A DNA stretch of 64,000 bases from a virus: IMG/VR virus record IMGVR_UViG_3300036715_001783, positions 16,695-80,694 of that record; one strand, given 5' to 3'. Every line of letters starts with the position of its first letter. Positions within the stretch are counted from its first letter, which is position 1. The notes beneath the pieces are model-generated. The model was not told where the DNA came from. It did not search any database and worked only from the letters and a program-made list of their open reading frames with translations. Shown here piece by piece: positions 7,000 to 43,518 of this stretch. The translations under genes and the position numbers were made by a program.

Positions 7000-7049
7000 A
7001 TGCATTTCTACATTAAACAAATTTAAAATAACTCTCAAAGGAGATGCAC

Positions 7050-8579
7050 ATGTCTAAACTTAACAAAGCACCAAAGAAAGTAACCAAAACTGTTGCAGTA
7101 GTTGCTGCAAAACACAATCTAACAGTTGCACATTCAGCAAACGGCAATCTACAGTTCAAAAAAGAACCACTGCAACATTTGTATGAGTTAACTGTATCCA
7201 CGTTGTTTGGTAGATCAACATTTTACCGTTCAAGTGATGCATTAGTACAAAGCTTACGAACAGAAGTACGGACTGCTGTTGAAATGGGTGCTCTTGATTT
7301 TGTCGCAAATCTTGCTATCCATGCAAGAGGTGAGATGAATATCAGAACAATTCCGATTGTTTTGGTTGTTGAATTTGCTAAAGCATTGCGTGAACAAGGT
7401 AAAACGTATCCACACTTAAGACACTTGGTTAGAGACGTTATTCAACGTGCTGATCAGATTACTGATATGTATGCTTATTCTCTTGACGTATTTGGAGAAA
7501 AAGGTAAAATCCCTATGGCCATCAAACGAGGTGTTGGTGATGCCTTCAATAATTTCGGTGAATATGCTTTTGCAAAATACAACAGAGCTGGTGCAATCAC
7601 CATTAAAGACGTGTTGCGAATTGTTCACCCTGTGGCAAACGAAGCTAAACAAGGTGCTATTTTTCAAAAAATCATTGATGAGAACCTGGAAACTCCATAC
7701 ACTTGGGAAACAGAACTGTCAAGAAACGGCCAATTACCAGAAGCTGAGCGTAAAAGCAAAGCAAAATTATGGACTGAGTTGTTGACTTCGGAAAAATTGG
7801 GATACATGGCACTGTTAAGAAACATGCGAAATATTCACGATGCAGGCGTGGCACACAATGTGGTTAAGACACATGTTGCTGATATTATTGCTGATGAACA
7901 ACGAGTTGCTGCTTCAAGACAGCTTACGTTTGATTTTTTGCAGGCCTATGATGTGATCAAACCTCTGAATTCCAGTATGGCTACTGCAGTATCAAAAGCT
8001 GTGGATATCAGTGTTAAGTACTTACCAAAAGTTGGTGAAAAAATTTGGGTAATTATTGATTACTCAGGCTCTATGAGTGGTAAAGCAATTGAAACAGCAA
8101 CGTTGTTGGCAGCAGCATTATTGAAAGCCAATGATGGATCAGAACGGTTAGCTGTAACTATGTTTGGTTCAGCAGCAAAGACCATTCATACTGTGGACAC
8201 AAATAACTCTGTGTTAGCTATCCAAAGAGAGTTGTTAACCCACCGTAGAGGGAACATTGCAGGCTCTACAGAGTTTCAAGCGGCAATGAGAGAATACCCA
8301 GGTTTAGGCTTTGTGCCTGATACCATCGTTGTGTTTACAGATGGCGAAATTAACAGATTTCACTACCCTGATTTGCAAAAAAATTCAGGCGATTCTAACA
8401 CAGTTAAACTGGTAGTTAATTTAGATGGAGCACCAACTACTCCATTCATTAAACAAGCTGGATGGTATGCAATGGCTGGCTGGACTCCTGCCATGTTTAA
8501 GTGGGTGCCTGCAATTAGAAACAAAGAAACTGTAGTGGATGCTTTATCTGGTCCATACACAGAACGAAAATCTAAGTAA
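7050..8579 (+). CDS. rsr: Ro60-like TROVE domain RNA-binding protein
   Basis: This 509-aa protein has an alpha-helical TROVE domain (about residues 30-320; for example 'LYELTVSTLFGRSTFY' and 'HARGEMNIRTIPIVLVVEFA') followed by a von Willebrand A domain with an intact MIDAS motif 'IIDYSGSMSG' (near 335) and 'VFTDGEINRFHYP'. Bacterial Ro60 (Rsr) binds misfolded RNAs and Y RNAs and works with PNPase in RNA decay. Of two close ATGs, 7050 is preferred because AAGGAG (7038-7043) abuts the one at 7044. No Y-RNA-like gene is evident beside it. RNA ligase and Pth2 genes nearby suggest an RNA quality or repair role during infection. Confidence 0.92.
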   Translation: MSKLNKAPKKVTKTVAVVAAKHNLTVAHSANGNLQFKKEPLQHLYELTVSTLFGRSTFYRSSDALVQSLRTEVRTAVEMGALDFVANLAIHARGEMNIRTIPIVLVVEFAKALREQGKTYPHLRHLVRDVIQRADQITDMYAYSLDVFGEKGKIPMAIKRGVGDAFNNFGEYAFAKYNRAGAITIKDVLRIVHPVANEAKQGAIFQKIIDENLETPYTWETELSRNGQLPEAERKSKAKLWTELLTSEKLGYMALLRNMRNIHDAGVAHNVVKTHVADIIADEQRVAASRQLTFDFLQAYDVIKPLNSSMATAVSKAVDISVKYLPKVGEKIWVIIDYSGSMSGKAIETATLLAAALLKANDGSERLAVTMFGSAAKTIHTVDTNNSVLAIQRELLTHRRGNIAGSTEFQAAMREYPGLGFVPDTIVVFTDGEINRFHYPDLQKNSGDSNTVKLVVNLDGAPTTPFIKQAGWYAMAGWTPAMFKWVPAIRNKETVVDALSGPYTERKSK

Positions 8580-11200: not shown

Positions 11201-11240
11201 AAACCAGGGGAGACAACTTGTCTCCCCTGGTTTTCTGTTT
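11201..11240 (+). terminator. intrinsic terminator
   Basis: AAACCAGGGGAGACAA (11201-11216) pairs perfectly with TTGTCTCCCCTGGTTT around a 2-nt centre, followed by TTTTCTGTTTT. This 16-bp G-rich stem with a U tract is the strongest terminator in the first 20 kb and ends the ligase transcript. Confidence 0.9.
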
Positions 11241-11430: not shown

Positions 11431-12345
11431 ATGGGAACAAAATTATCGTTAGAAACTTTTGTTAATAAGTCCACAAAAGTTCATGGTGACACGTATGATT
11501 ATTCTTTGTTTGATTATAAAAATTGGGACACTAAATCTATAATAATATGTAAGATTCATGGAAATTTTTTACAACAACCAAGACTACACATTGAAAGAAA
11601 AAGTGGTTGTCCCATATGTGGTAAACGCAAGCAAGGGATAACCAAGGCAATTAAAGAATCTGAGTTTATAGTTAAAGCAACCCAACTTCACGGTGATAAA
11701 TATGATTATTCTCAACTGGGCTATGTTAATATATCATCTCCTGTTAATATTATATGTCCCATTCATGGGATATTTCGGATTGAGTATGCATATGCTCATA
11801 CCACAAATAAAACCGGCTGTGCTAAATGTGCACAGGATAGTGGTAGAAATACTACAGAAGACTTTATAACTAAATCAAAATCGTTATATGGAGATGCATT
11901 TTCATATGAGTTATCCCAATATGTTACTGTTCATACTCAGTTAACTATAAAGTGTGCTCAACATGGATATCAAGTAATAACGCCAGCAGACCATTATAGA
12001 ATTGGGTGCTGGATATGTAAACGAAATAGATTACAAGATATTTGGTTAGATAGCTTAAATCTACCAAATACAAGAAATCACCGACAAGTTAGATTAAAAA
12101 TCAACAATAGACTACATATCGTAGATGGTTTCGACTCTACAACTAATACAGTTTATTTGTTTCACGGAGATTATTGGCACGGAAATCCAATATTATATAA
12201 ACCAACTGACGTCAACAAACGAATAGAAAAATCATTTGGAGAATTATATGTTCAAACGTTAGAATATGAAGATAGAATAAGGCACGCAGGATATAAACTT
12301 TTAGTTATGTGGGAATATGAATGGCTACAACAGAACATTGTGTAA
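11431..12345 (+). CDS. modular homing endonuclease, 304 aa
   Basis: Three tandem modules of about 60 residues share the pattern F..K....HG..YDYS..Y......I.C..HG.F......H...GC..C, the treble-clef-like DUF723-type DNA-binding repeat. They are followed by a Vsr-like nuclease domain with 'YLFHGDYWHGNP' and the end 'GYKLLVMWEYEW'. The same C-terminal motif occurs in the genes at 14009 and 17147. It lies between a truncated and a complete HNH gene and its 3' end overlaps the latter's start by 25 nt. It is probably a free-standing homing enzyme. Confidence 0.8.
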   Translation: MGTKLSLETFVNKSTKVHGDTYDYSLFDYKNWDTKSIIICKIHGNFLQQPRLHIERKSGCPICGKRKQGITKAIKESEFIVKATQLHGDKYDYSQLGYVNISSPVNIICPIHGIFRIEYAYAHTTNKTGCAKCAQDSGRNTTEDFITKSKSLYGDAFSYELSQYVTVHTQLTIKCAQHGYQVITPADHYRIGCWICKRNRLQDIWLDSLNLPNTRNHRQVRLKINNRLHIVDGFDSTTNTVYLFHGDYWHGNPILYKPTDVNKRIEKSFGELYVQTLEYEDRIRHAGYKLLVMWEYEWLQQNIV

Positions 12346-14008: not shown

Positions 14009-15157
14009 ATGATTGATAAACAAGCTAATTGGTTAGCAAAGGCTAAAAAAATCCACGGAGACCTATATGACTATTCTCTTGTTGTATATGTGTCTCCAGA
14101 TGTTCCAGTAATTATAAACTGCCCAATTCATGGACAGTTTCACAAAAGTCCAAATGGACATACCAACAAAAAGGCTGGGTGTCCTAAATGTGGATATCTA
14201 ATTAGAGCAGTCAACAATCGGGAAAAATATGGGGTAGATAATCCAGCACAGTTGGCTATTATACAACAAAAGAAAAAACAAACTGTGTTAGCTCGGTATG
14301 GTGTGGAATATGCATCACAAAATGAAAATATACAAAACAAAACAAAACAAACTAATTTGGCAAAATATGGACACCAGAATATTGCCCACGGTACAAAGAA
14401 AGAGAAGGTGACACATACCAATTTAGAAAAATATGGCGGGCACCCAAGAAAAAATAAAGATGTACAAGAAAAACAAAAAAGAACAAATCTGGAACGGTAT
14501 GGGTACGAAAATGCTGCCCAATCAAATATTATCCAAAATAAAATAAAACAAACTAATTTAGAGCGATACGGAGTAGAGTATGCTTCGCAGAACAACATTA
14601 TCAAAGAAAAAATAAAACAAACTAATTTAGAGCGATATGGAACACAATCTTACAGCCAACAACACTTGGTGGATATTCTCCCATTGCTTGAAGATTATGG
14701 TTGGTTATTTGAACAATATATTACCCAAAATAAGACAGCTACCCAAATAGCAAACGAATTAGGGAATGTTTATTATGGAACTATAATTTCGTACTTAATG
14801 TACTATGAAATAGAAATCCAACAATATTATTGGAGTTCATACAAATGTCGACTGTGGATTGCACAACAAGACGGTGCAATAATTGAAGAGTGGAAAATAC
14901 CAAATACAAGATTCAGAGCGGATGGATATTGTGAGGCAACAAATACCATTTATGAATTTCATGGGGACTATTGGCACGGAAATCCATCAATTTACCAACC
15001 AGACGAAATAAATGAAGTAGTTGGAAAATCCATGGGTGAGCTGTATCTGAAAACATTGGACCGAGAAAGCCTAATAAAATCATTAGGTTACAATCTAGTG
15101 GTTGTGTGGGAACATGATTTTGATACGTCCATAGAATTTATGGTGCAACAACAATAA
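14009..15157 (+). CDS. modular homing endonuclease with short repeats
   Basis: The 382-aa protein has one DUF723-type module at the N-terminus (K..HG..YDYSLV.Y through GC..C). About seven tandem repeats of roughly 20-29 residues around 'KQTNLERYGVEYASQ' follow (about residues 68-212), then a linker. The C-terminal Vsr-like nuclease domain has 'YEFHGDYWHGNP' and 'GYNLVVVWEHDF'. The repeats occur in phage endonucleases and probably read DNA sequence. It has its own promoter and interrupts a run of ordinary genes, so it is a likely mobile intruder. Confidence 0.82.
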   Translation: MIDKQANWLAKAKKIHGDLYDYSLVVYVSPDVPVIINCPIHGQFHKSPNGHTNKKAGCPKCGYLIRAVNNREKYGVDNPAQLAIIQQKKKQTVLARYGVEYASQNENIQNKTKQTNLAKYGHQNIAHGTKKEKVTHTNLEKYGGHPRKNKDVQEKQKRTNLERYGYENAAQSNIIQNKIKQTNLERYGVEYASQNNIIKEKIKQTNLERYGTQSYSQQHLVDILPLLEDYGWLFEQYITQNKTATQIANELGNVYYGTIISYLMYYEIEIQQYYWSSYKCRLWIAQQDGAIIEEWKIPNTRFRADGYCEATNTIYEFHGDYWHGNPSIYQPDEINEVVGKSMGELYLKTLDRESLIKSLGYNLVVVWEHDFDTSIEFMVQQQ

Positions 15158-17146: not shown

Positions 17147-18244
17147 ATGAGAAAAAGATGGTCTAATTTATTGGTTGATGAGTGGTTAATATCCCACAAG
17201 TTACCTATAACTAGATTATCATTATTTGAAAATGTCAGTACTCCATTACAATATAAATGTGAAGTTTGTGATAATATATGGAGTACTGCTTGGGTTAATA
17301 TATATTCCAGGGGCACTAGATGTCCCAAGTGTGCAATTGTACGAGTGGCACACTTACACACCAATTCGTTAGATTGGTGGAATGCTAAATTGGCATTGGT
17401 ACATATACTAAATATGGAGCCTATTATACCTGGAGATAATTCAGCTATAACATGGAAATGTGAAAATTGTGAATATACTTGGATAGCAACCAAAAGCTCC
17501 ATAATATCTCCAAATTTTGGAGGATGTAAGTGTTGTACTGGAAAATTGGTTAATAACCAAATTATAGATACCAAATTATCTGATAGAAATATTACTAGGT
17601 TGGATGATTTTATAGCAACAAATACTCCAATTAGTTGGAGTTGTAATGTGTGTGACCACAAGTGGAAGACATCTCCAACCAAAATTTTAAACGAAGGTAC
17701 AGGTTGCCCAAAATGTTCTAATAGGGTTAGGCATACAAATGAAGACATTGACCACAGGTGTGGGGCTATTGGAATACGACGAGTGGGAAATTATGTTAAT
17801 ACCCATACTAAAATAGAGTGGTGTTGCAAAAAGTGTAACAATACATGGCATGCAAAACCATCTAATATATTAAACCAACATACTGGATGTCCCCATTGTC
17901 GAACTCCATCATATTCAAAGAAAGCTATCCGGTGGTTAAATCAAACGATGCAGACTGATTGTTGTTTTATTCAACATGCTGAGAATATTGGGGAATACTT
18001 AGTACCAGATATTTTAGTAAAAGTAGATGGATACTGCAAAGAAACGAACACTATATACGAATTTCATGGGGATATATTTCATGGAAATCCAAATAAATTT
18101 ACAGCAGATGAAATGTGTAGTCCATTTCATAAATTAACAGCTGGTGAACTGTACAATAAAACTAAACACAAGGAGAGTAAAATAATGAAAGCGGGATATA
18201 AATTAGTAGTTATGTGGGAGAGTGAATATGACTCAAAAAAATAA
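17147..18244 (+). CDS. homing endonuclease with zinc-ribbon repeats
   Basis: This 365-aa protein has about four zinc-ribbon modules of some 60 residues, each with C.VC...W......I...G.GCP.C (DUF4379/treble-clef type; for example 'YKCEVCDNIWSTAW'). A Vsr-like nuclease domain with 'YEFHGDIFHGNP' and 'GYKLVVMWESEY' follows. It begins 2 nt after the Dcd stop and its end overlaps the next gene's start, so it slotted neatly between two metabolic genes. It is a likely free-standing homing endonuclease. Confidence 0.8.
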   Translation: MRKRWSNLLVDEWLISHKLPITRLSLFENVSTPLQYKCEVCDNIWSTAWVNIYSRGTRCPKCAIVRVAHLHTNSLDWWNAKLALVHILNMEPIIPGDNSAITWKCENCEYTWIATKSSIISPNFGGCKCCTGKLVNNQIIDTKLSDRNITRLDDFIATNTPISWSCNVCDHKWKTSPTKILNEGTGCPKCSNRVRHTNEDIDHRCGAIGIRRVGNYVNTHTKIEWCCKKCNNTWHAKPSNILNQHTGCPHCRTPSYSKKAIRWLNQTMQTDCCFIQHAENIGEYLVPDILVKVDGYCKETNTIYEFHGDIFHGNPNKFTADEMCSPFHKLTAGELYNKTKHKESKIMKAGYKLVVMWESEYDSKK

Positions 18245-21468: not shown

Positions 21469-22311
21469 ATGAAATTTATTATATATAAACACACCAATAC
21501 AATAACAAAAAAATCATATATTGGTTATACCAGTAGTACTTTAGAAAAGCGTTTAAATAGACATTTTCAAGACGCAAAAAGAGGTTCTAATCAATATTTT
21601 CACCGTGCTATCAGAAAATATGGACAAGATTGTTGGATAAGTGAAATACTTGCTGAATGTGAAATAATTCAGCAAGCTCATAAATTAGAATGTTCGTTGA
21701 TATTAGAACACAACACTTTTGGAATAAATGGATATAACATGACTATTGGTGGGGAAGGTACAACTGGTAGAATAGTATCTGAGGAAAGTAGACAAAGGTT
21801 AAGAGCCCAGCATCTTAATTTTAGACATACAACCAAAAGTAAACAAACCATGGTTGAAAAATTTACTATATTAAGAGGACGAAAAGTAAATCAATATACC
21901 AAATCTGGACAATATATTGCTACATATGATTCATGCACACAAGCAGCTCAACAAGTATTAAATAATAAAAACTTGAGTGGTAGCATACACCAATTATGTG
22001 CTGGAACTTTTTCTAATTGGAATCAGGAATTGGTTAAGGGATTTCAGTGGAAATTTGATAACCTAGACAATCGCACAGATGTATCTCCGATTGTCGGGTT
22101 AAAGGATACTCATATAAAAAATCTGGTCAAGCGCAATAGCCAACAGGCCAAAAAAGTACAACAATTATCAACAAACGATGAATTGATATCCAGTTATACA
22201 AGCGCAAAAGAGGCCAGCCTACTTACAGGGATATACATATCAGGCATACAACGATGTTGTATAGGAAGATTATTAACAGCTGGTGGATATAAATGGGCCT
22301 ATATCAATTAA
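21469..22311 (+). CDS. GIY-YIG homing endonuclease
   Basis: The 280-aa protein starts with a GIY-YIG domain: 'IIYKHTNTITKKSYIGYT' carries the KH-Y / YIG pair, followed by 'EKRLNRHF' with the catalytic Arg and a Glu near residue 65. A NUMOD3-like stretch ('SEESRQRLRAQH') and two NUMOD1-type modules ('VNQYTKSGQYIATYDS' and 'VQQLSTNDELISSYTS') read DNA. It sits between QueE and a Nudix gene with no host-gene motifs shared and carries no strong ribosome site. It is a free-standing homing endonuclease. Confidence 0.88.
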   Translation: MKFIIYKHTNTITKKSYIGYTSSTLEKRLNRHFQDAKRGSNQYFHRAIRKYGQDCWISEILAECEIIQQAHKLECSLILEHNTFGINGYNMTIGGEGTTGRIVSEESRQRLRAQHLNFRHTTKSKQTMVEKFTILRGRKVNQYTKSGQYIATYDSCTQAAQQVLNNKNLSGSIHQLCAGTFSNWNQELVKGFQWKFDNLDNRTDVSPIVGLKDTHIKNLVKRNSQQAKKVQQLSTNDELISSYTSAKEASLLTGIYISGIQRCCIGRLLTAGGYKWAYIN

Positions 22312-28065: not shown

Positions 28066-30192
28066 ATGACAGAAGTTACAAGTCCAAAAACCCACTATTT
28101 ACGGACGGGGAACAGTATTAGAGTGGTAAGTGCTGCAAATATCAACATTTGTGATGGGTTACCTCCTGGTAATTATATTGTACAGTTTGACCAACAATCT
28201 GGTGAATATTTTTTGGAAACAGTTGATAACTTTACTATTCCAACAAAATTGTACGGTAATGTATTTGACCAAGCAGAGCGTATTATCTCTACGTTTATGG
28301 ATCGGCCTAATACAACTGGAGTATTGTTAACTGGTGAGAAAGGTAGTGGTAAAGCACTTCGTGTTGACCAATCTGTGTATACTCCAATGGGAGAACGTAA
28401 AATTGGTGAGTTGGTTGTAGGTGATATGATTTATGGTGCAGATGGTAAATTAACAACTGTATTGGGAGTATACCCACAAGGTGTGCGAGATATGTTTGAA
28501 GTTACATTTAACGATGGTAGCCAAGTTATTGCAGATGGTGAACATTTATGGGATGTAAAACAAACAACTCGTAGCCAAGTCGGATTTCCAAAACAATCCA
28601 CCAAAAATCGAATTAAATCAACTATCCCAAAAATTCTTACAACAGCACAAATTAAACAGGCACTAAACGCAGGGGTTAAACATGTGGTGCCTTTATGTGG
28701 CCCTGTAGAATTTCCAAAAAGTGATGTTGATGCTGATAGATATACAATTGGGTTGTTGATAGGGGATGGTTGTTTGTGTAATCCAACATTAACAATTAGC
28801 TCAAATGATCCAGCTATCGTAGAACACTTACAGATAGACAATATAATTAAATATACAAGTGGTGTTGATTATAGATTTGTTGACTGTAAACATTTAGTGG
28901 ACCAACTAACTTTGTTGGGGTTAAGAGGTACAAGAAGTAATACTAAGTTTATCCCCGAAAAATTAAAGTACGATTCGGTGGAAAACCGTTTTGCATTATT
29001 ACAAGGGCTAATGGACTCTGATGGAACAGTTAGTAAAAGAGGGGGCATTACATACACCACCGTTAGTAATATCTTAGCAAATGACATGGTGTGGTTGGCA
29101 AGATCTCTCGGATTCAGAAGTTCAATCCAACACACTCGTGCACCTTCATATACACACAATGGAATTAAAAAAATTGGACAATTAGCATATACAGTCCAAT
29201 TAACTGGAGAGCATACTGATAAGGTCTTTCGTTTAGAAAGAAAACAGGCAAGAGTTAAACCATGCTCATCAAATACTAAAACTATTGTGGATATTAAATC
29301 AGTTGCTCCCGATGAAGCTGTATGTATTTTGGTAGACAATGAATCTCATTTGTTTGTAACAAACGATTTTACAGTAACTCACAACACAATGCTCACAAAA
29401 GTCATCAGTACAACATTAGCTGCCAAAGGAATTTCAACAGTCGTTATTAACGAGTGTATGTATGGAGACTTATTCAACAAATTTATTCAGATGATTGATT
29501 CTGAATGTGTAGTGTTATTTGATGAGTTCGAAAAAGTATATCCAACAGATGTCCAAGAAAAAATGCTGACATTGTTGGATGGGGTATTTCCATCAAAGAA
29601 ATTATTCTTATTCACTAGCAATTCATCTAGCCGGATTAATTCACACCTGATGAACCGTCCTGGTCGTATTTTTTATGTGTTGAAATATGCTGGCCTAGAC
29701 AGTGAGTATATTACTCAATACTGTAATGATGTGCTTGTCGATAAGTCTTATATTGATGAAATTTGTCGATTGTCACTATTGTTCTCTGCATTTAACTTTG
29801 ATATGCTTAAAGCATTAGTTGAAGATATGAACAGATATAACGAATCTCCAACTCAAGTTATGAAGCTGTTGAATGCCATTCCAGAAGATACTGGAAACAA
29901 TAGTTTTGATGTTGAATTGTCGTACAAAGGTGAATGGTTTAACAAAGGTCAGTTGGATGATCATGGCGCTTGGAGTGGCAATCCACTGGATCCACGAGGG
30001 GTTGGTATTGAATACCGCAATCCAAACCCAAACGAAGATAATGATTCCAATTATTGGTTAACAGTTCTCCTGTTTAGTGAGAACCTCACCAGAGTGGACA
30101 TCGAAACTGGTACGTTTGAATATGCAAAAGATGATTTTGTACTTCGACTGAAACGAAGCAAAACATTGTCGTACCAATACTCTGCTTTCTAA
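28066..30192 (+). CDS. AAA+ ATPase split by an intein
   Basis: The 708-codon ORF encodes an AAA+ ATPase (364 aa after splicing). The Walker A motif reads GEKGSGK, then the intein (codons 97-440), then TMLTK, so the mature P-loop is GSGKT. Walker B 'VVLFDEFEKV', sensor 1 'LFLFTSNSSSR' and the arginine finger region 'LMNRPGRIFYVLKY' follow. Such stand-alone AAA+ proteins in phages may act in DNA metabolism or as chaperones; the exact role is unknown. The enzyme can work only once the intein is removed. AAAGGAG precedes the start and a terminator follows. Confidence 0.88.
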   Translation: MTEVTSPKTHYLRTGNSIRVVSAANINICDGLPPGNYIVQFDQQSGEYFLETVDNFTIPTKLYGNVFDQAERIISTFMDRPNTTGVLLTGEKGSGKALRVDQSVYTPMGERKIGELVVGDMIYGADGKLTTVLGVYPQGVRDMFEVTFNDGSQVIADGEHLWDVKQTTRSQVGFPKQSTKNRIKSTIPKILTTAQIKQALNAGVKHVVPLCGPVEFPKSDVDADRYTIGLLIGDGCLCNPTLTISSNDPAIVEHLQIDNIIKYTSGVDYRFVDCKHLVDQLTLLGLRGTRSNTKFIPEKLKYDSVENRFALLQGLMDSDGTVSKRGGITYTTVSNILANDMVWLARSLGFRSSIQHTRAPSYTHNGIKKIGQLAYTVQLTGEHTDKVFRLERKQARVKPCSSNTKTIVDIKSVAPDEAVCILVDNESHLFVTNDFTVTHNTMLTKVISTTLAAKGISTVVINECMYGDLFNKFIQMIDSECVVLFDEFEKVYPTDVQEKMLTLLDGVFPSKKLFLFTSNSSSRINSHLMNRPGRIFYVLKYAGLDSEYITQYCNDVLVDKSYIDEICRLSLLFSAFNFDMLKALVEDMNRYNESPTQVMKLLNAIPEDTGNNSFDVELSYKGEWFNKGQLDDHGAWSGNPLDPRGVGIEYRNPNPNEDNDSNYWLTVLLFSENLTRVDIETGTFEYAKDDFVLRLKRSKTLSYQYSAF
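28354..29385 (+). mobile_element. class 3 intein with LAGLIDADG endonuclease
   Basis: The 344-aa insert begins with Ala (not Cys/Ser) and ends 'TVTHN' before Thr +1. Block B reads 'ADGEHLW', with Trp two residues after His; block F carries Cys in 'EAVCILVDN'; Thr precedes the final His-Asn. This Trp-Cys-Thr triplet defines class 3 inteins, in which the block F Cys replaces residue 1 as nucleophile. 'IGLLIGDGCL' and 'LLQGLMDSDGTV' are the two LAGLIDADG motifs of a homing endonuclease. The insertion point in the Walker A loop is a classic protected homing site. Confidence 0.9.
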
Positions 30193-33354: not shown

Positions 33355-33486
33355 ATGAAGATAAATCCAATTTTGATGTTGATTATACTCGTGATAGCTG
33401 CGGTAGCGACTGGCAAAAAGATAATCAACAATACTAATGCTAAATCTATTTGGCAAGATATTATCATTGTTATCACAAACGAATAA
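33355..33486 (+). CDS. small membrane protein, 43 aa
   Basis: One hydrophobic segment (about residues 5-19) followed by a basic and amphipathic tail. Single-pass membrane peptide; not recognised. The upstream ribosome site is weak. Confidence 0.45.
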   Translation: MKINPILMLIILVIAAVATGKKIINNTNAKSIWQDIIIVITNE

Positions 33487-33505
33487 CTTATTAAGGAGTT
33501 CAAAT

Positions 33506-33739
33506 ATGTCTGACAATAAACATTATAAAATTAACTTGTGGAAGGTATTAGCTGTTGTGGTATTGTTAGCTGTTATTGACTTGTTAATTTCAAATTACAC
33601 ATCATACCAATCAAAAATTGATTGGTATGATGTGTGGTATTCCATCACAAATTTCATATACGATGACAGTGTTCCTGTTGAAACTTGTATGAAAACTCAA
33701 TGTGATGACCCCAAGCTTCCTTTTTGGAGCAAATTATGA
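33506..33739 (+). CDS. small membrane protein, 77 aa
   Basis: AAGGAG (33493-33498) serves ATG 33506. The product has one membrane span (about residues 11-30) and a Tyr/Trp/Asp-rich outer part with two Cys. A perfect 18-bp inverted repeat lies inside the gene. Its end overlaps the next start (ATGA). Not recognised. Confidence 0.6.
   Translation: MSDNKHYKINLWKVLAVVVLLAVIDLLISNYTSYQSKIDWYDVWYSITNFIYDDSVPVETCMKTQCDDPKLPFWSKL
33597..33635 (+). repeat. perfect 18-bp inverted repeat in a CDS
   Basis: ACACATCATACCAATCAA (33597-33614) and its exact complement (33618-33635) are separated by AAA. It lies in the coding region of the 77-aa membrane protein and would form a long RNA hairpin there. Confidence 0.95.
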
Positions 33740-34198: not shown

Positions 34199-34264
34199 CC
34201 CCCTATTGACATTTAATTTATTTCATGTATAATAGGGTTTTTAAATTAATCAAAAGGAGATAAT
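34199..34264 (+). repeat. left 66-bp direct repeat with promoter (CRISPR cassette edge)
   Basis: This 66-bp segment recurs at 42363-42428 with a single mismatch (A/G). It contains TTGACA (34206-34211), TATAAT (34228-34233; 16-nt spacer) and the ribosome site AAAGGAGATAAT that serves cas8f. It is the promoter of the cas operon. No other promoter pair in the window is this similar except the tandem pair at 58.4 kb, so it reads as a duplication that frames the cassette. Confidence 0.95.
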
Positions 34265-34265
34265 T

Positions 34266-35339
34266 GTGACAAAAGAAAAGGTTCCAAAGGTAAAAACCTG
34301 GGATGAGAAGTGGGGGAATTTAACAGATGATGCTATACTGGTGTCTGGTAATAATGCTGTTCACTATTCATTCAAATATATCAATTCAAACTTACAAGGT
34401 GGAATAAGATTATCTCCATCTGATGTGATATTAGATTCACCATATGTTTCTGGTATAACTGCTATGTGTTATCAACAACTACCTGTTGAATACTTTGCGT
34501 CATCTGTTATCACAATTTATAGTTATTTAGATTACCTTAATAACTCAAATCCAAGTCACCCACACGTTTCACTATTTACAACCAACCATACAGCTAGGTA
34601 TGAATATGGTACAACTGATTTATCTGGAACAAATTGTCGAATGAGACAAGTTTTGATACCTATTGGTGATGGGTACATAAGTGCTACACCAGTTAGTCCA
34701 GCAGGATTTAATTACCTAATGAAACAATTGAATGACCAAATTGAACCCAAAGAACGGTTAACTACTTATTTCATCACGTATGGTGGTGCAAATGGACGGA
34801 ATGTTGGGTGGGAAGCATGCAAAAAACATACCTATGCACTGTGTATGTCAGCTCCAACTGAGGATAGAAACATCCAACATGCGTATTCTATTTTTTACAA
34901 AGGTGTTGACTTGTCTTTGCCTAAACATATTGTACGTGAGTTATTTAATTTGCGACTACACCCCGACATGGTGGGATATACCAAAAAAGAAAATGATATA
35001 TTATCAAGTTTCATCAATGTGGTGTTGCACAAAGCTGTATTAGCTCGAGACATATTAATATCACAGAAGGATGCATTATATGATGCAGAACTATTTGAAA
35101 ATGTTACTGCACCACATAGTTATATTTTTGAATTACATGAGTCAGTAACAAACGATCTTATACAAAGTGGACTAATAAATCCAACTAAACGGAATAAGGA
35201 ATGGAAAGGGTTGTTGGCAACTAAGATTGTGAGCATGTTGGTGGATGAGAAGATCACTATTAGTGGGCAAACACGGTCATTAAATCTTGATGATGACCAA
35301 ATTGCTGAACTATCAGATAAGATGAGAAAAATGCTATGA
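34266..35339 (+). CDS. cas8f: Cas8f (Csy1), type I-F Cascade large subunit
   Basis: GTG start placed 9 nt after AAGGAG. The 357-aa protein is shorter than the roughly 430-aa Csy1 of Pseudomonas, chiefly in the C-terminal half. The recognisable core is 'FITYGGANGRNVGWEA' (about 169-184), matching the Csy1 G-G-x-x-P-Q-N region that helps read the PAM, and a helical C-terminal domain. Order and spacing (overlap of 4 nt with cas5f) match a csy1-csy2-csy3-csy4 operon. It would recognise the PAM on target DNA and hold the crRNA 5' end. Sequence identity is low, so the call rests largely on context. Confidence 0.82.
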   Translation: MTKEKVPKVKTWDEKWGNLTDDAILVSGNNAVHYSFKYINSNLQGGIRLSPSDVILDSPYVSGITAMCYQQLPVEYFASSVITIYSYLDYLNNSNPSHPHVSLFTTNHTARYEYGTTDLSGTNCRMRQVLIPIGDGYISATPVSPAGFNYLMKQLNDQIEPKERLTTYFITYGGANGRNVGWEACKKHTYALCMSAPTEDRNIQHAYSIFYKGVDLSLPKHIVRELFNLRLHPDMVGYTKKENDILSSFINVVLHKAVLARDILISQKDALYDAELFENVTAPHSYIFELHESVTNDLIQSGLINPTKRNKEWKGLLATKIVSMLVDEKITISGQTRSLNLDDDQIAELSDKMRKML

Positions 35340-36139
35340 ACAATATATTAATAATTCCAAGAATTGAAGTGGTCAAATATAATGTATTGGCTTCTCAGTG
35401 GTTAATTTCACCAACCCCTGTACATGCCATAAACATGTTTGTCCACAATTTACAACTTAAAACTGGTATTGTATGCTCACGGGTATCCATTGTGCACCAT
35501 GATTTTTCATACAAGGCTGCTATTGGGAAATATAATGCACCCGCATTTGAAAAGCCAAAGGGAGCATCGTTTATTGATAAGTTAGATTATCCAAGTGACG
35601 GAAAGCCATTAATAGGGCCAAAATCACTATCATTTCAACCTAATTTTTATGGAGACATGACTATTAGTTTGATTATCGAAATTGACGATAGTGATAAGCA
35701 CACAGACGTGGAAGATTTTCTACATACAGCAAAAATTGCTGGTGGGGATATTATATCACACAAACCAATAAAGGTGTGTAATATCGCTGATGTATTTAAC
35801 CACATCAAAACTGGTTTCTTCGTCGAAGATTATAGCCACCTAATTGACCCTTCAAAAAATCAATTAGAACAATTGGTTACAACAATATCTAATAGCAAAG
35901 ATTGGATAAGTGCTGCCACATTGGGGTATGCTAAACTAACACAAGAGATTCACAAGCCAGGAGTACGAAATGGTGTTAAACATTGTTTCGTAGAGCCTTT
36001 AGTGGGGCTAATAAAATATATTCCAATTCACAACACCAAGGATGTTTCTGATATTCGATTTTGGAATTATGAGTGGAACACCCCATCAACTTTTATATGC
36101 AAACAAGAAGCCCTAATTTTAAATTCAGAGGAGAATTAA
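35336..36139 (+). CDS. cas5f: Cas5f (Csy2)
   Basis: The 267-aa protein starts 'ILIIPRIEVVKYNVLAS', as in Csy2 ('LLVIPRLQVQNANA'), followed by 'PTPVHAINMFVHNL' and 'VCSRVSIVHHDF' that match the Csy2 pattern. A C-terminal aromatic 'RFWNYEW' also fits. It is about 50 aa shorter than usual. It should cap the 5' end of the crRNA beside Cas8f. ATGA overlap with cas8f. Confidence 0.88.
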   Translation: MNNILIIPRIEVVKYNVLASQWLISPTPVHAINMFVHNLQLKTGIVCSRVSIVHHDFSYKAAIGKYNAPAFEKPKGASFIDKLDYPSDGKPLIGPKSLSFQPNFYGDMTISLIIEIDDSDKHTDVEDFLHTAKIAGGDIISHKPIKVCNIADVFNHIKTGFFVEDYSHLIDPSKNQLEQLVTTISNSKDWISAATLGYAKLTQEIHKPGVRNGVKHCFVEPLVGLIKYIPIHNTKDVSDIRFWNYEWNTPSTFICKQEALILNSEEN

Positions 36140-36140
36140 T

Positions 36141-37196
36141 ATGTCAAAACAAGTTTTTAAAAAGACCCCAAGTGTGTTAGCATTTCAACGGGCTGTATTA
36201 GCAACCGATGCTTTAATTTACAGTGTGTTGGATACCGGTATTGAGTTACCAGTACAAGTGACAGAAGTTGGAATCAGAGGTACTCAAAATATTAATGGTT
36301 CAATAAAAGAAGAAGTGCGAAATCTTCAATTGGTGGACGCTGCTAAAACTGCACCAAATACAAAGTTTGTTAAATTTGTATTTGGTATTAAGTTTATTGA
36401 TATAAGAAAATCATTACACTCCATCGCAAGTGGTAAAGAGGATAGCAAACAAGACGTAAGTGATTTCAAACAAAGTTTAGATGAATTTTTGAACAGAGTA
36501 ACTGGTCAAGAAGATGGAGAATTAGAAATCACTGGTAGTGATGGAATTTTAGATGTTGCAACTCGTTATGCCAGAAATATTGCAAATGCAAAGTGGTTGT
36601 GGCGTAATCGGTTATATGCTTCATCAATCACAACAACCGTTTCTGTTACTGATATCAAATCAAAACAGGCTCCTACAGTGTTTGTGTTTGATTCACTTGA
36701 GGTAGAATCTAAACATTTTGATGATTTTACTAAGGACGAAGAAGAACTTGGTAAACTAATCAACGATAGCTTATTAGGTACACGATTGTTAACCATCGAA
36801 GTATCAAGTGTTGTGGATTTTGGGGTTACAGGCGTGTTTGAAGTATTCCCATCCCAGTTATTCATTGATACTGATGCACTACCAAAAAATAAAAAAGGTA
36901 AATTTTTGTATGCAATCAAAAATAGCAATGATAGCATTGGCCAAGCAGCCATTAGAGATCAAAAAATAACCAATGCGTTGAGAACAATTGATACTTGGTA
37001 CAAAGAATTTGATCAAGTAAAAGATCCTATTCCAGTTGAACCAAATGGTGCAAGTTTAACCCATATGGTCTTTTTTAGAAAAGGTGCAGAATCGTCCTTT
37101 GATATTATTAAACGATTGAACACCATTGATGTTGATAGTGATGAAGGTAAGTTCTTTATATCCGCATTAATTCGTGGCGGCGTTTATTCATCATAA
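36141..37196 (+). CDS. cas7f: Cas7f (Csy3), crRNA backbone subunit
   Basis: At 351 aa this is a full-length Csy3 with close motifs: 'PSVLAFQRAVLATDALIYS', 'VRGT'-like 'IRGTQNING', 'ATRYARNIANAKWLWRNRLYA' (P. aeruginosa reads ARRYAHNLANARFLWRNR), 'VFEVFPSQLFID', 'KITNALRTIDTWY', 'VEPNGAS' and the end 'ISALIRGGVYSS' (host: IANLIRGGVF). Six copies line the crRNA in the Csy complex. It is the best conserved Cas protein of the locus and fixes the subtype as I-F. GAGGAG precedes the start. Confidence 0.97.
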   Translation: MSKQVFKKTPSVLAFQRAVLATDALIYSVLDTGIELPVQVTEVGIRGTQNINGSIKEEVRNLQLVDAAKTAPNTKFVKFVFGIKFIDIRKSLHSIASGKEDSKQDVSDFKQSLDEFLNRVTGQEDGELEITGSDGILDVATRYARNIANAKWLWRNRLYASSITTTVSVTDIKSKQAPTVFVFDSLEVESKHFDDFTKDEEELGKLINDSLLGTRLLTIEVSSVVDFGVTGVFEVFPSQLFIDTDALPKNKKGKFLYAIKNSNDSIGQAAIRDQKITNALRTIDTWYKEFDQVKDPIPVEPNGASLTHMVFFRKGAESSFDIIKRLNTIDVDSDEGKFFISALIRGGVYSS

Positions 37197-37207
37197 GGAA
37201 TAATAAC

Positions 37208-37780
37208 ATGACAATTTTGCATTATGTTGATTTAACACACTCCCGGTTCAATAATATTCCACAAGATAAGTCTAATATATTCAGACTATTGCATGGTATT
37301 TTTAAATCAGATAATCATTTATACAACGTATTCGGGTTAGCTTTTATTAAAAATGGAGTTAGAGTGTTTTGTGAAGATATTGGTGGGTTAGAAGATTTGT
37401 GGACAGAACTAAAAAATAACGATTCTGTAAAAGAATCATTTTATTTAGATAGACCAAATTCTGTTAATTTATCAAAATATATTGGCGGATGGATTTCGCA
37501 TTCAAGGTTCTCTATCCCAACAAGAAAACAAGATAGACACCCAACAGGTCCACTACGAAGAAAACGATTATTAGAAGCAGATGAAAATCCTAACATTTCA
37601 TATGTAAATGTTGGTTCAAAATCACAACAAACCCATTTCAGATATTATGTGAATCATCAATTCCATAATGATTGGAATTATGAGAGTGGTTGGGAAACTA
37701 ATGGTTATGGATTGTCATCATCTACAAGGTTGGTTGCTTTTCCATATTCAATTGGTAGAGAGTATCCGATTTATGAATGA
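37208..37780 (+). CDS. cas6f: Cas6f (Csy4), crRNA-processing endonuclease
   Basis: 190 aa, as in Csy4. His29 in 'FRLLHGIF' is at the same position as the catalytic His29 of P. aeruginosa Csy4; 'VGSKSQQTHFRYYVNH' matches the SQSTGQHFRLFIRH strand holding the catalytic Ser; 'GPLRRKRLLE' is the Arg-rich helix that grips the hairpin; 'NGYGLSSSTRLVAF' is the C-terminal strand. The residues matching Arg102/Gln104, which read the two bases at the stem foot, are Arg100 and Ser102. It cleaves each repeat and stays on the crRNA. A solitary repeat lies 32 nt after its stop. Confidence 0.95.
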   Translation: MTILHYVDLTHSRFNNIPQDKSNIFRLLHGIFKSDNHLYNVFGLAFIKNGVRVFCEDIGGLEDLWTELKNNDSVKESFYLDRPNSVNLSKYIGGWISHSRFSIPTRKQDRHPTGPLRRKRLLEADENPNISYVNVGSKSQQTHFRYYVNHQFHNDWNYESGWETNGYGLSSSTRLVAFPYSIGREYPIYE

Positions 37781-37812
37781 CCCAACATTCACAGGGATAA
37801 TGTTATCTAAGC

Positions 37813-37840
37813 ATTAGTCATCGTGTAGATGATTTAGAAA
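37813..37840 (+). repeat. solitary CRISPR repeat between cas6f and cas1 fragment
   Basis: A 28-bp copy identical to the array repeats, starting ATTAGTCATCG and ending TTTAGAAA. It lies 32 nt after the cas6f stop and 527 bp before the array's first repeat. In the cas transcript it would be a Cas6f cleavage site. Its presence left of cas1 suggests that an older array edge or a repeat-mediated deletion produced the present layout. Confidence 0.97.
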
Positions 37841-37865
37841 TCCCATTGATAAAGTTAGAGGACAA

Positions 37866-38318
37866 GTGAACAAATCTACTAATGTGAATGAATTGATGGG
37901 ACATGAAGGAGCATTTGCAAAGAAACTATTTTCACTGTTAGCAACTGGTTTCAACATAACTAATTTTTCAAGACAACGAAATGAACAAGATTCTACACAA
38001 TCTATTAATGTTATGATTAATAACTATTTAGATTATGGTAATTATTTGGCCTATGGATACGCTGCTGTAGTTCTAAATGGGTTGGGATTGAATCATGGGT
38101 TTCCGTTGTTGCACGGTACAACCAGAAGAGATGCTTTAATTTTTGATGTAGCTGATTTATTCAAAGATGGGCATATAATGCCCACTGCTTTCGAATATGC
38201 TACATCAGGAACAAAACAAACAGGACAACTATATAGACAATTAGTTACCAAACATTGCTACGATTCAGGGGTGTTAGATGACGCATTTTTATCCATGAAA
38301 TCCATCGTTTCTTTGTGA
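37866..38318 (+). pseudogene. cas1: truncated Cas1 (C-terminal catalytic domain only)
   Basis: The 150-aa product aligns with the alpha-helical catalytic domain of type I-F Cas1 (about 325 aa in hosts): 'MGHEGAFAKKLFSL' (Glu14, the metal Glu), 'YLDYGNYLAYGYAAVVLNGLG', 'PLLHGTTRRDALIFDVADLFKD' (His83 and Asp94/Asp97). All three metal ligands remain, but the N-terminal beta domain used for dimerisation is missing: a TGA inside the solitary repeat closes the frame upstream. The GTG start has a weak GAGGA site, so it may be expressed. Spacer integration is probably lost; a minimal or altered Cas1 cannot be excluded. Confidence 0.9.
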
Positions 38319-38333
38319 TTGTTACCTATGTTG

Positions 38334-38362
38334 TTGATTTTAGCAGTAAAATGTGCTAAACT
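38334..38362 (+). promoter_or_regulatory. array promoter abutting the first repeat
   Basis: TTGATT (38334-38339) and an extended -10, TG-C-TAAACT (38354-38362), with a 17-nt spacer. The start of transcription would fall at about the first base of repeat 1 (38368). Only 49 bp separate the cas1 stop from the array, so there is little room for an adaptation leader with IHF sites. Confidence 0.6.
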
Positions 38363-38367
38363 ACAGC

Positions 38368-39355
38368 ATTAGTCATCGTGTAGATGATTTAGAAACGCAT
38401 GAATAACGCTACGCGGCATACCGTCATATTAGTCATCGTGTAGATGATTTAGAAATGACATGACAGTTGACATGACAGGTGATGTGAATTAGTCATCGTG
38501 TAGATGATTTAGAAATGATGATGTGATGTTGTCATACAGTCGTGATAATTAGTCATCGTGTAGATGATTTAGAAACAAACAAACCATGCCTGTTTTACCC
38601 ACTACTTATTAGTCATCGTGTAGATGATTTAGAAAAATTCGGTAGTGGCTCTTCAGCACAATCAATGATTAGTCATCGTGTAGATGATTTAGAAAACCAT
38701 ATGAAGGAGTGGTAGCACCATCGGGGCATTAGTCATCGTGTAGATGATTTAGAAACACTTGGAGGATATTTCTTAGATGGACACAAAATTAGTCATCGTG
38801 TAGATGATTTAGAAATAGACCCATTGTCTGTTCCACCAGTATGGTAAATTAGTCATCGTGTAGATGATTTAGAAAATCAAATAATAAAATATTTTTGATT
38901 GATAAATATTAGTCATCGTGTAGATGATTTAGAAAAATGGAGTAATAGTGAGTTTGACAGCTGATGTATTAGTCATCGTGTAGATGATTTAGAAATCAAA
39001 GTATCGCCATATAATCAGCTCCTTCTAATTAGTCATCGTGTAGATGATTTAGAAAATTATATGCAAAAGGTAGATTTACGTTAGTTGATTAGTCATCGTG
39101 TAGATGATTTAGAAAACATAAGTACACATATGGGTATTTGGTTAATAATTAGTCATCGTGTAGATGATTTAGAAAAATCAATTTTTGATATAGATGTGTA
39201 ATTTGAAATTAGTCATCGTGTAGATGATTTAGAAAAGCATACGGGTACAAAGGAGAAGTTGGATTCAATTAGTCATCGTGTAGATGATTTAGAAAACATG
39301 AATAATATACAATCATCGTCTGCAATAATTAGTCATCGTGTAGATGATTTAGAAA
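38368..39355 (+). CRISPR. type I-F CRISPR array, 17 repeats and 16 spacers
   Basis: Repeats of 28 bp recur with an exact 60-bp period; all 17 are identical, and every spacer is 32 bp. The repeat (ATTAG, stem TCATC, loop GTGTA, stem GATGA, then TTTAGAAA) has the type I-F form: GTTCACTGCC-GTATA-GGCAG with 8-nt handle CTAAGAAA in the classic version. This sets the transcription direction as + strand. The stem foot is a T-A pair where the classic repeat has C-G. Spacers are all different. None matched the rest of the window by eye; targets are unknown. Confidence 0.99.
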
Positions 39356-42362: not shown

Positions 42363-42428
42363 CCCCCTATTGACATTTAATTTATTTCGTGTATAATAGG
42401 GTTTTTAAATTAATCAAAAGGAGATAAT
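42363..42428 (+). repeat. right 66-bp direct repeat with promoter (CRISPR cassette edge)
   Basis: This copy of the 34199-34264 segment differs at one base between the -35 and -10. TTGACA (42370-42375) and TATAAT (42392-42397) precede the ribosome site for the membrane protein at 42432. It starts 5 nt after the cas2-3 stop. A recombination between the two copies would delete the entire cassette and leave one intact promoter. Confidence 0.95.
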
Positions 42429-43467: not shown

Positions 43468-43518
43468 AAGATAACCAATTAACTTTCGCATCAAATGCGA
43501 AAGTTAATTGGTTATCTT
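43468..43518 (+). terminator. 24-bp perfect hairpin
   Basis: AAGATAACCAATTAACTTTC and four further bases (43468-43491) pair without mismatch with 43495-43518 around the loop CAA. It lacks a T tract of normal length but follows the structured, gene-free stretch and could end or protect that RNA. It could equally be a protein-binding palindrome. Confidence 0.65.

Follow-up and report, generated by a model that had tools for sequence, protein, structure and literature searches.

A type I-F cassette in a phage genome

The window, which is the whole stretch of 64,000 bases analysed here, comprises bases 16695-80694 of a linear virus record of 80,694 bases, the record being a fragment of a larger genome. 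Within it lies a CRISPR-Cas cassette in which everything reads on the + strand, in the order cas8f, cas5f, cas7f, cas6f, a solitary repeat, a cas1 remnant, a leader-like stretch, the array and cas2-3 (Table 1). Judged by sequence, the interference side of the system (Cas8f, Cas5f, Cas7f, Cas6f, Cas2-3 and the array) looks intact. The assignment to type I-F rests on the interference genes and is independent of cas1, which is missing approximately residues 5-161. Cas2-3 keeps its Cas2 domain, its HD motif and its helicase motifs, and Cas8f is 25-28% identical to the proteins that relatives encode at the csy1 position. Among the interference genes the least certain call is that of Cas6f; it shares 27-30% identity with the csy4 products of relatives, and the LHG..F and YGL motifs are kept.

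The whole cassette is flanked by direct repeats. A 66-bp promoter and ribosome-binding element occurs only twice in the record, before cas8f and again after cas2-3, and the two copies are identical at 65 of 66 positions. These flanking repeats suggest that the cassette was inserted recently behind a phage promoter that was duplicated.

Table 1. Features of the cassette, in window coordinates
Feature	Position	Strand	Remarks
Promoter and ribosome-binding site	34199..34264	+	strong sigma-70-like; ahead of csy1
cas8f (csy1), 357 aa	34266..35339	+	PADLOC Cas8f, E 8e-21
cas5f (csy2)	35336..36139	+	Pfam Cas_Csy2, E 3e-12; PADLOC Cas5f
cas7f (csy3)	36141..37196	+	Pfam Cas_Csy3, E 4e-60; TIGR02566, 224 bits
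cas6f (csy4)	37208..37780	+	weak PADLOC Cas6f, E 1e-3
Possible remnant of original cas1 start	37800..37812	+	ATG TTA TCT AAG C behind AGGGATA
Solitary CRISPR repeat	37813..37840	+	same sequence as all 17 repeats of the array; presumed deletion scar
C-terminal half of cas1f	37842..38318	+	approximately residues 161-317 of a full-length relative
Leader-like stretch, 49 nt	38319..38367	+	between cas1 remnant and first array repeat
CRISPR array	38368..39355	+	17 identical 28-nt repeats, 16 unique 32-nt spacers
Spacer 14	39176..39207	+	near match, with CC motif, to the phage's own gene 33437-33739
cas2-3, 992 aa	39380..42358	+	TIGR02562, 621 bits; PADLOC Cas3f full length, E 2e-201
Second copy of 66-bp promoter element	42363..42428	+	right border of cassette

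The cas1 remnant and the solitary repeat

The sequence-only reading had placed a short Cas1 at 37866-38318, and an ORF of 150 codons, encoding 150 aa, is indeed found there, the GTG at 37866 beginning the longest ORF that has a start codon. Its product is a Cas1f, matching TIGR03637 with 140 bits (E 9e-41) over profile positions 161-305 of 307; Pfam Cas_Cas1 matches at E 5e-12, and Cas1 chains in the PDB, among them that of Vibrio phage ICP1, match at 1e-20 to 1e-22. Similarity to the solved chains begins at about their residue 152 and continues onward. The homology also reaches back beyond the GTG in the same frame, stopping only a few bases short of the solitary repeat (37842-37866); there the window reads 'PIDKVRGQVNKSTN' and a relative, L027, reads 'LLNRFSNRIEKSTN'. 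The open frame of the remnant is 159 codons long, and its GTG corresponds to residue 170 in the 317-aa Cas1 of another relative, L028.

The claimed loss of the N-terminal half of Cas1 stands. A tblastn search of the whole 80.7 kb record with two Cas1f proteins returned the C-terminal half only, and a clade-specific query for the N-terminal half found no match in the same record, so that a half hidden elsewhere in it, or in another frame, can be set aside. An N-terminal half lying beyond the 80.7 kb would not restore the gene in place. A simple frameshift is likewise rejected, since mid-cas1 is preceded by the repeat, and the repeat by the end of csy4.

How much of the protein is gone? An AlphaFold2 model of the L028 Cas1 (317 aa), with a mean pLDDT of 84.6, puts the beginning of the helical catalytic domain at about residue 111. 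The fragment's GTG is at 170, and the cut therefore removes both the beta domain and some 50 residues of the catalytic domain; relative to the model, helices 111-121, 123-147 and 149-153 are gone, together with part of 160-172. By these limits the remnant has neither the N-terminal beta domain nor a complete alpha-helical domain, and the earlier description of a Cas1 reduced to its catalytic domain does not hold. Residues H25, R72 and R76 contribute to the handling of foreign DNA by the Cas1 of P. aeruginosa (PMC12259127), and the equivalents of all three fall in the missing half.

The ancestral arrangement can be read from the relatives. Among plasmids, the best relatives of Cas2-3 belong to I-F systems of Acinetobacter and Allochromatium, in which csy1-csy2-csy3-csy4-cas1 is followed by the array and cas1 is full length, at 317-318 aa. 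Bacterial genomes scanned with a Cas1 alignment of the same I-F branch yielded many more loci of the same order, csy1-csy2-csy3-csy4-cas1-leader-array. In these, cas1 encodes 309-321 aa (35 proteins examined) and begins 3-63 nt after csy4 (33 loci with csy4 detected). The window's leader-like stretch fits this cas1-leader-array order, although the relatives' leaders are longer, most of them about 100 nt. The fragment and the relatives have in common an insertion before the LDHGNY motif. Gene order, full-length cas1 and common insertion together indicate that the phage locus descends from one with a complete cas1 at this position. Over the half that both possess, the nearest Cas1 has about 45% identity, a distance at which synonymous sites are saturated. 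Close relatives of the phage itself were found in neither INPHARED nor IMG/VR.

Two other interrupted cas1 genes came to light and were rejected as examples of the same truncation, as their disruptions are different. An IMG/VR prophage contig, L019 (9200-10441), abuts cas1 at about residue 146, which looks like a prophage lodged within a bacterial cas1. In a Desulfovibrio MAG, L061 (9493-10432), cas1 is split near residues 151-161 by a frameshift that could be real or a sequencing error.

Compared with the relatives, approximately 155 codons of cas1 have been replaced in the window by one exact 28-nt CRISPR repeat, which abuts the mid-cas1 homology. The solitary repeat of the sequence-only reading is thus confirmed as an exact copy of the array repeat, and its sequence occurs 18 times in the record. 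Between csy4 and this repeat lies AGGGATA-ATG-TTA-TCT-AAG-C, which is possibly the old cas1 start, to judge by 13 bases; the frame read from the ATG at 37800 ends at a stop inside the repeat. Might the repeat be flanked by spacers? The 32 nt to its right were rejected as a spacer, as they align instead as cas1, and their best match elsewhere in the record was equalled by 2 of 150 shuffles. The 32 nt to its left are of a length that fits a spacer, and no target was found for them.

Loss of adaptation and its alternatives

What events account for this structure? We think it quite likely that the type I-F system of this phage lost adaptation recently, by deletion within cas1, leaving the 16-spacer array frozen. 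As its alternative, the sequence-only reading had proposed that a deletion took place recently and was joined at the solitary repeat, and this is the part that is supported, the relatives having a full cas1 between csy4 and the leader and array, and the repeat abutting mid-cas1. A recent rearrangement would have removed the codons for residues 5-161, approximately, and left one CRISPR repeat as a scar. A plausible route has two steps, resting on a few bases: a duplication or strand transfer would have connected mid-cas1 with a repeat's right edge, and a deletion would then have followed, bounded by the cas1 start (..CTAAGC) and by the leader end (..CTACAGC). The putative start-codon remnant likewise rests on a few bases.

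The Cas1 beta domain pairs Cas1 subunits and helps to position prespacer DNA. A remnant lacking it, and part of the catalytic domain, would form no integrase and acquire no new spacers, and we infer that integrase activity has been lost and that the adaptation half of the system is dead. If so, only a host Cas1 acting in trans could add to the array, which is otherwise frozen. As for interference, a promoter at 34206 would drive the operon; Cas6f would cut the array transcript, the Csy complex would form, and Cas2-3 would degrade matching DNA, these steps being established type I-F biology. With its genes intact, the system probably still cuts DNA that matches its 16 spacers. The recency of the deletion, the retention of interference and the route are what we infer from these comparisons.

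One would think that a decaying cas1 would soon lose its catalytic residues, and the sequence-only reading took their survival as a sign of selection. The fragment does keep E14, H83 and D97, which align with the Cas1 metal ligands and occupy the Glu, His and Asp columns that never vary across 48 aligned Cas1f sequences, so that the claim that all ligands are retained is borne out; but G89D and V92I change two otherwise invariant columns, both between H83 and D97, inside the active-site segment. Of the 29 columns in which the other 47 sequences never vary, the fragment thus keeps 27; none of those 47 breaks an otherwise invariant column. The 159 open codons and the 27 of 29 invariant positions count against deletion followed by decay, and selection would also explain them. 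How long would a neutral fragment look like this? At 0.1 replacements per site, the probability that at least 27 invariant columns are kept is 0.47 and that no stop arises is 0.38; at 0.3 replacements per site, these fall to 0.01 and 0.06. A neutral fragment would hold 27 of 29 columns without a stop up to about 0.2 replacements per site, and the intactness therefore merely dates the event as recent. Retained catalytic residues are no proof of selection, since a recent deletion predicts them too, and the argument from their survival is a weak one.

Divergence of the remnant can also be measured against its clade and its operon partners. At 54 columns the residue is shared by 90% or more of 34 relatives; the fragment has changed at 14 of these columns and no relative at more than 3. 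For the fragment the distance to the clade amounts to 1.7-1.8 clade means, versus 1.2-1.4 for the five partner Cas proteins, and the ratio of Cas1 to partner distance is 1.27, against a mean of 1.00 (sd 0.07). No other Cas1 in the set is as divergent as the window copy, which is also out of line with its partner Cas proteins. In the same comparison the Cas1 of ICP1 stands at 1.31, against 0.93-1.27 for the other ICP1 proteins, and the ICP1 CRISPR system is described as fully functional (PMC11656645). A Cas1 may therefore be somewhat divergent in a functional system, and the acceleration is no proof of relaxed constraint.

Could the 150-aa product nonetheless be made, and be retained for some function in which the integrase dimer has no part, such as holding Cas2-3 in check or acting as a nuclease? 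We regard this as unlikely. It is favored by the open frame, by the retained ligands and invariant columns, by an AGAGGA preceding the GTG start, and by the finding that full Cas1 represses Cas2/3 in type I-F (PMC12259127). The predicted structure speaks on both sides. AlphaFold2 models the 150-aa product alone with a mean pLDDT of 87.5, and the model matches Cas1 chains at TM 0.84, including 3nke, the C-terminal domain of E. coli Cas1 that was solved in isolation; some folding of the product is thus plausible. The fold is confident overall and Cas1-like, but the segment around H83 is weak, with a mean pLDDT of 56 in the fragment versus 82-89 in the full-length relative. Further, the cut falls inside the catalytic domain, G89D and V92I lie in the active-site segment, no other Cas protein of the locus is as accelerated against its clade as the remnant, and the truncation, sought among the relatives as had been proposed, is common to none of those examined. 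The excess divergence relative to the operon partners and the path of the cut through the catalytic domain weigh against the selected short Cas1 that had been suggested. Improbable in our estimation is the stronger form of that suggestion, in which the truncated Cas1 is a selected monomeric core that regulates Cas2-3 or acts as a nuclease, with no integration and an array deliberately frozen.

A different concern is that the junction is an artefact of assembly, in which a longer array was collapsed or two variants were joined at the 28-nt repeat. The junction is a sequence that occurs 18 times in the record, and the record is an 80.7 kb fragment. Even if the join were false, however, there would have to be real DNA in which a repeat stands beside the csy4 end and beside mid-cas1, and the N-terminal half of cas1 is nowhere in the record, so that we give an artefact little credence. 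Finally, it is most improbable that the solitary repeat is a functional RNA, either a Racr (RNA anti-CRISPR) or a Cas6f site for processing the operon transcript, with the cas1 remnant incidental: the repeat is exact, folds as the repeat hairpin (z -3.8) and follows cas6f on the same strand, where a Cas6f cut of the transcript would be expected, and solitary repeats of phages act as Racrs against type I-F (PMC10651486), but a repeat identical to those of the phage's own array would act on its own system, and, for all its resemblance to a CRISPR repeat, it has no strong promoter of its own, the + strand directly upstream being without a promoter-like site of at least 10 matches, whereas RacrIF1 is strongly expressed from its own promoter (PMC10651486).

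Known systems, the array and neighboring genes

Type I-F systems with the order csy1-csy2-csy3-csy4-cas1-array are found on A. baumannii p1DB053, a plasmid of Acinetobacter sp. ANC 7974, Allochromatium tepidum pAt1, Acinetobacter chromosomes and others. The phage locus has in common with these its gene order, its Cas8f type and an array directly after cas1, and its repeat agrees by eye with that of A. modestus at 25 of 28 bases. It differs in several respects. The relatives are plasmids and chromosomes, whereas the carrier here is a phage; cas1 is full length in the relatives and halved in the phage; and cas2-3, which is divergent or upstream in the relatives, follows the array on the same strand in the phage. 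Vibrio phage ICP1 likewise encodes a I-F system, a complete one, with homologs of Cas1f and Cas2-3; its Cas1 and Csy3 are 40% and 31% identical to the window proteins. ICP1, however, has the order cas1-cas2-3-csy1-4 and a full cas1, and is of a different I-F branch; the window locus has neither that order nor a full cas1.

That phage CRISPR systems are typically without acquisition genes is already known from published work, and in huge phages almost all CRISPR systems are without Cas1, Cas2 and Cas4 (Al-Shayeb 2020, PMC7162821). The window locus resembles those of the huge phages in that interference is retained and adaptation is not, but in the huge phages the acquisition genes are absent, while here half of cas1 is still present. 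Racrs and other solitary repeat units (PMC10651486) resemble the window in having a single repeat outside an array in a phage; unlike them, the solitary repeat of the window is inside a complete cas locus, equals the repeat of its own array and would mark a deletion scar. What is new is a phage-borne I-F system of a branch other than that of ICP1, with the loss of adaptation apparently caught midway. Published surveys seldom show how the acquisition genes of phage CRISPR systems get lost.

From where were the spacers taken? A search for their targets in phages and plasmids gave nothing beyond repeat-driven or weak matches, and spacers 1 and 14 have no exact match in IMG/VR. Spacer 14 differs from the phage's own minus strand at 33589-33623 by a short gap and one mismatch, with a score of 47 compared with 38 or less in 150 shuffles. 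CC lies directly upstream of this match, as expected for type I-F, and the difference preserves the frame of the ORF at 33437-33739. The near self-match, the CC and the kept frame indicate that the probable source of spacer 14 was a phage related to this one, or this phage in an earlier form, while adaptation worked. The near match would connect the array with competition among related phages, or with self-targeting in the past.

The phage's own copy of the spacer 14 target has a net insertion of 3 nt, in frame, within a long perfect palindrome, and the insertion is possibly an escape mutation that arose by template switching. Long perfect palindromes with 3-nt loops are seen at 33597-33635, 43468-43518 and 11201-11233, with arms of 18, 24 and 15 bases.

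Several other genes of the window deserve mention. An AAA-type ATPase gene at 28066-30192 contains internal homing-endonuclease and LAGLIDADG domains and is intein-like. ORFs at 21469-22311, 11431-12345, 14009-15157 and 17147-18244 resemble homing-type endonucleases by eye (GIY-YIG or Vsr-like), and a 511-aa ORF at 7044-8579 is, also by eye, a TROVE/Ro60-like candidate.
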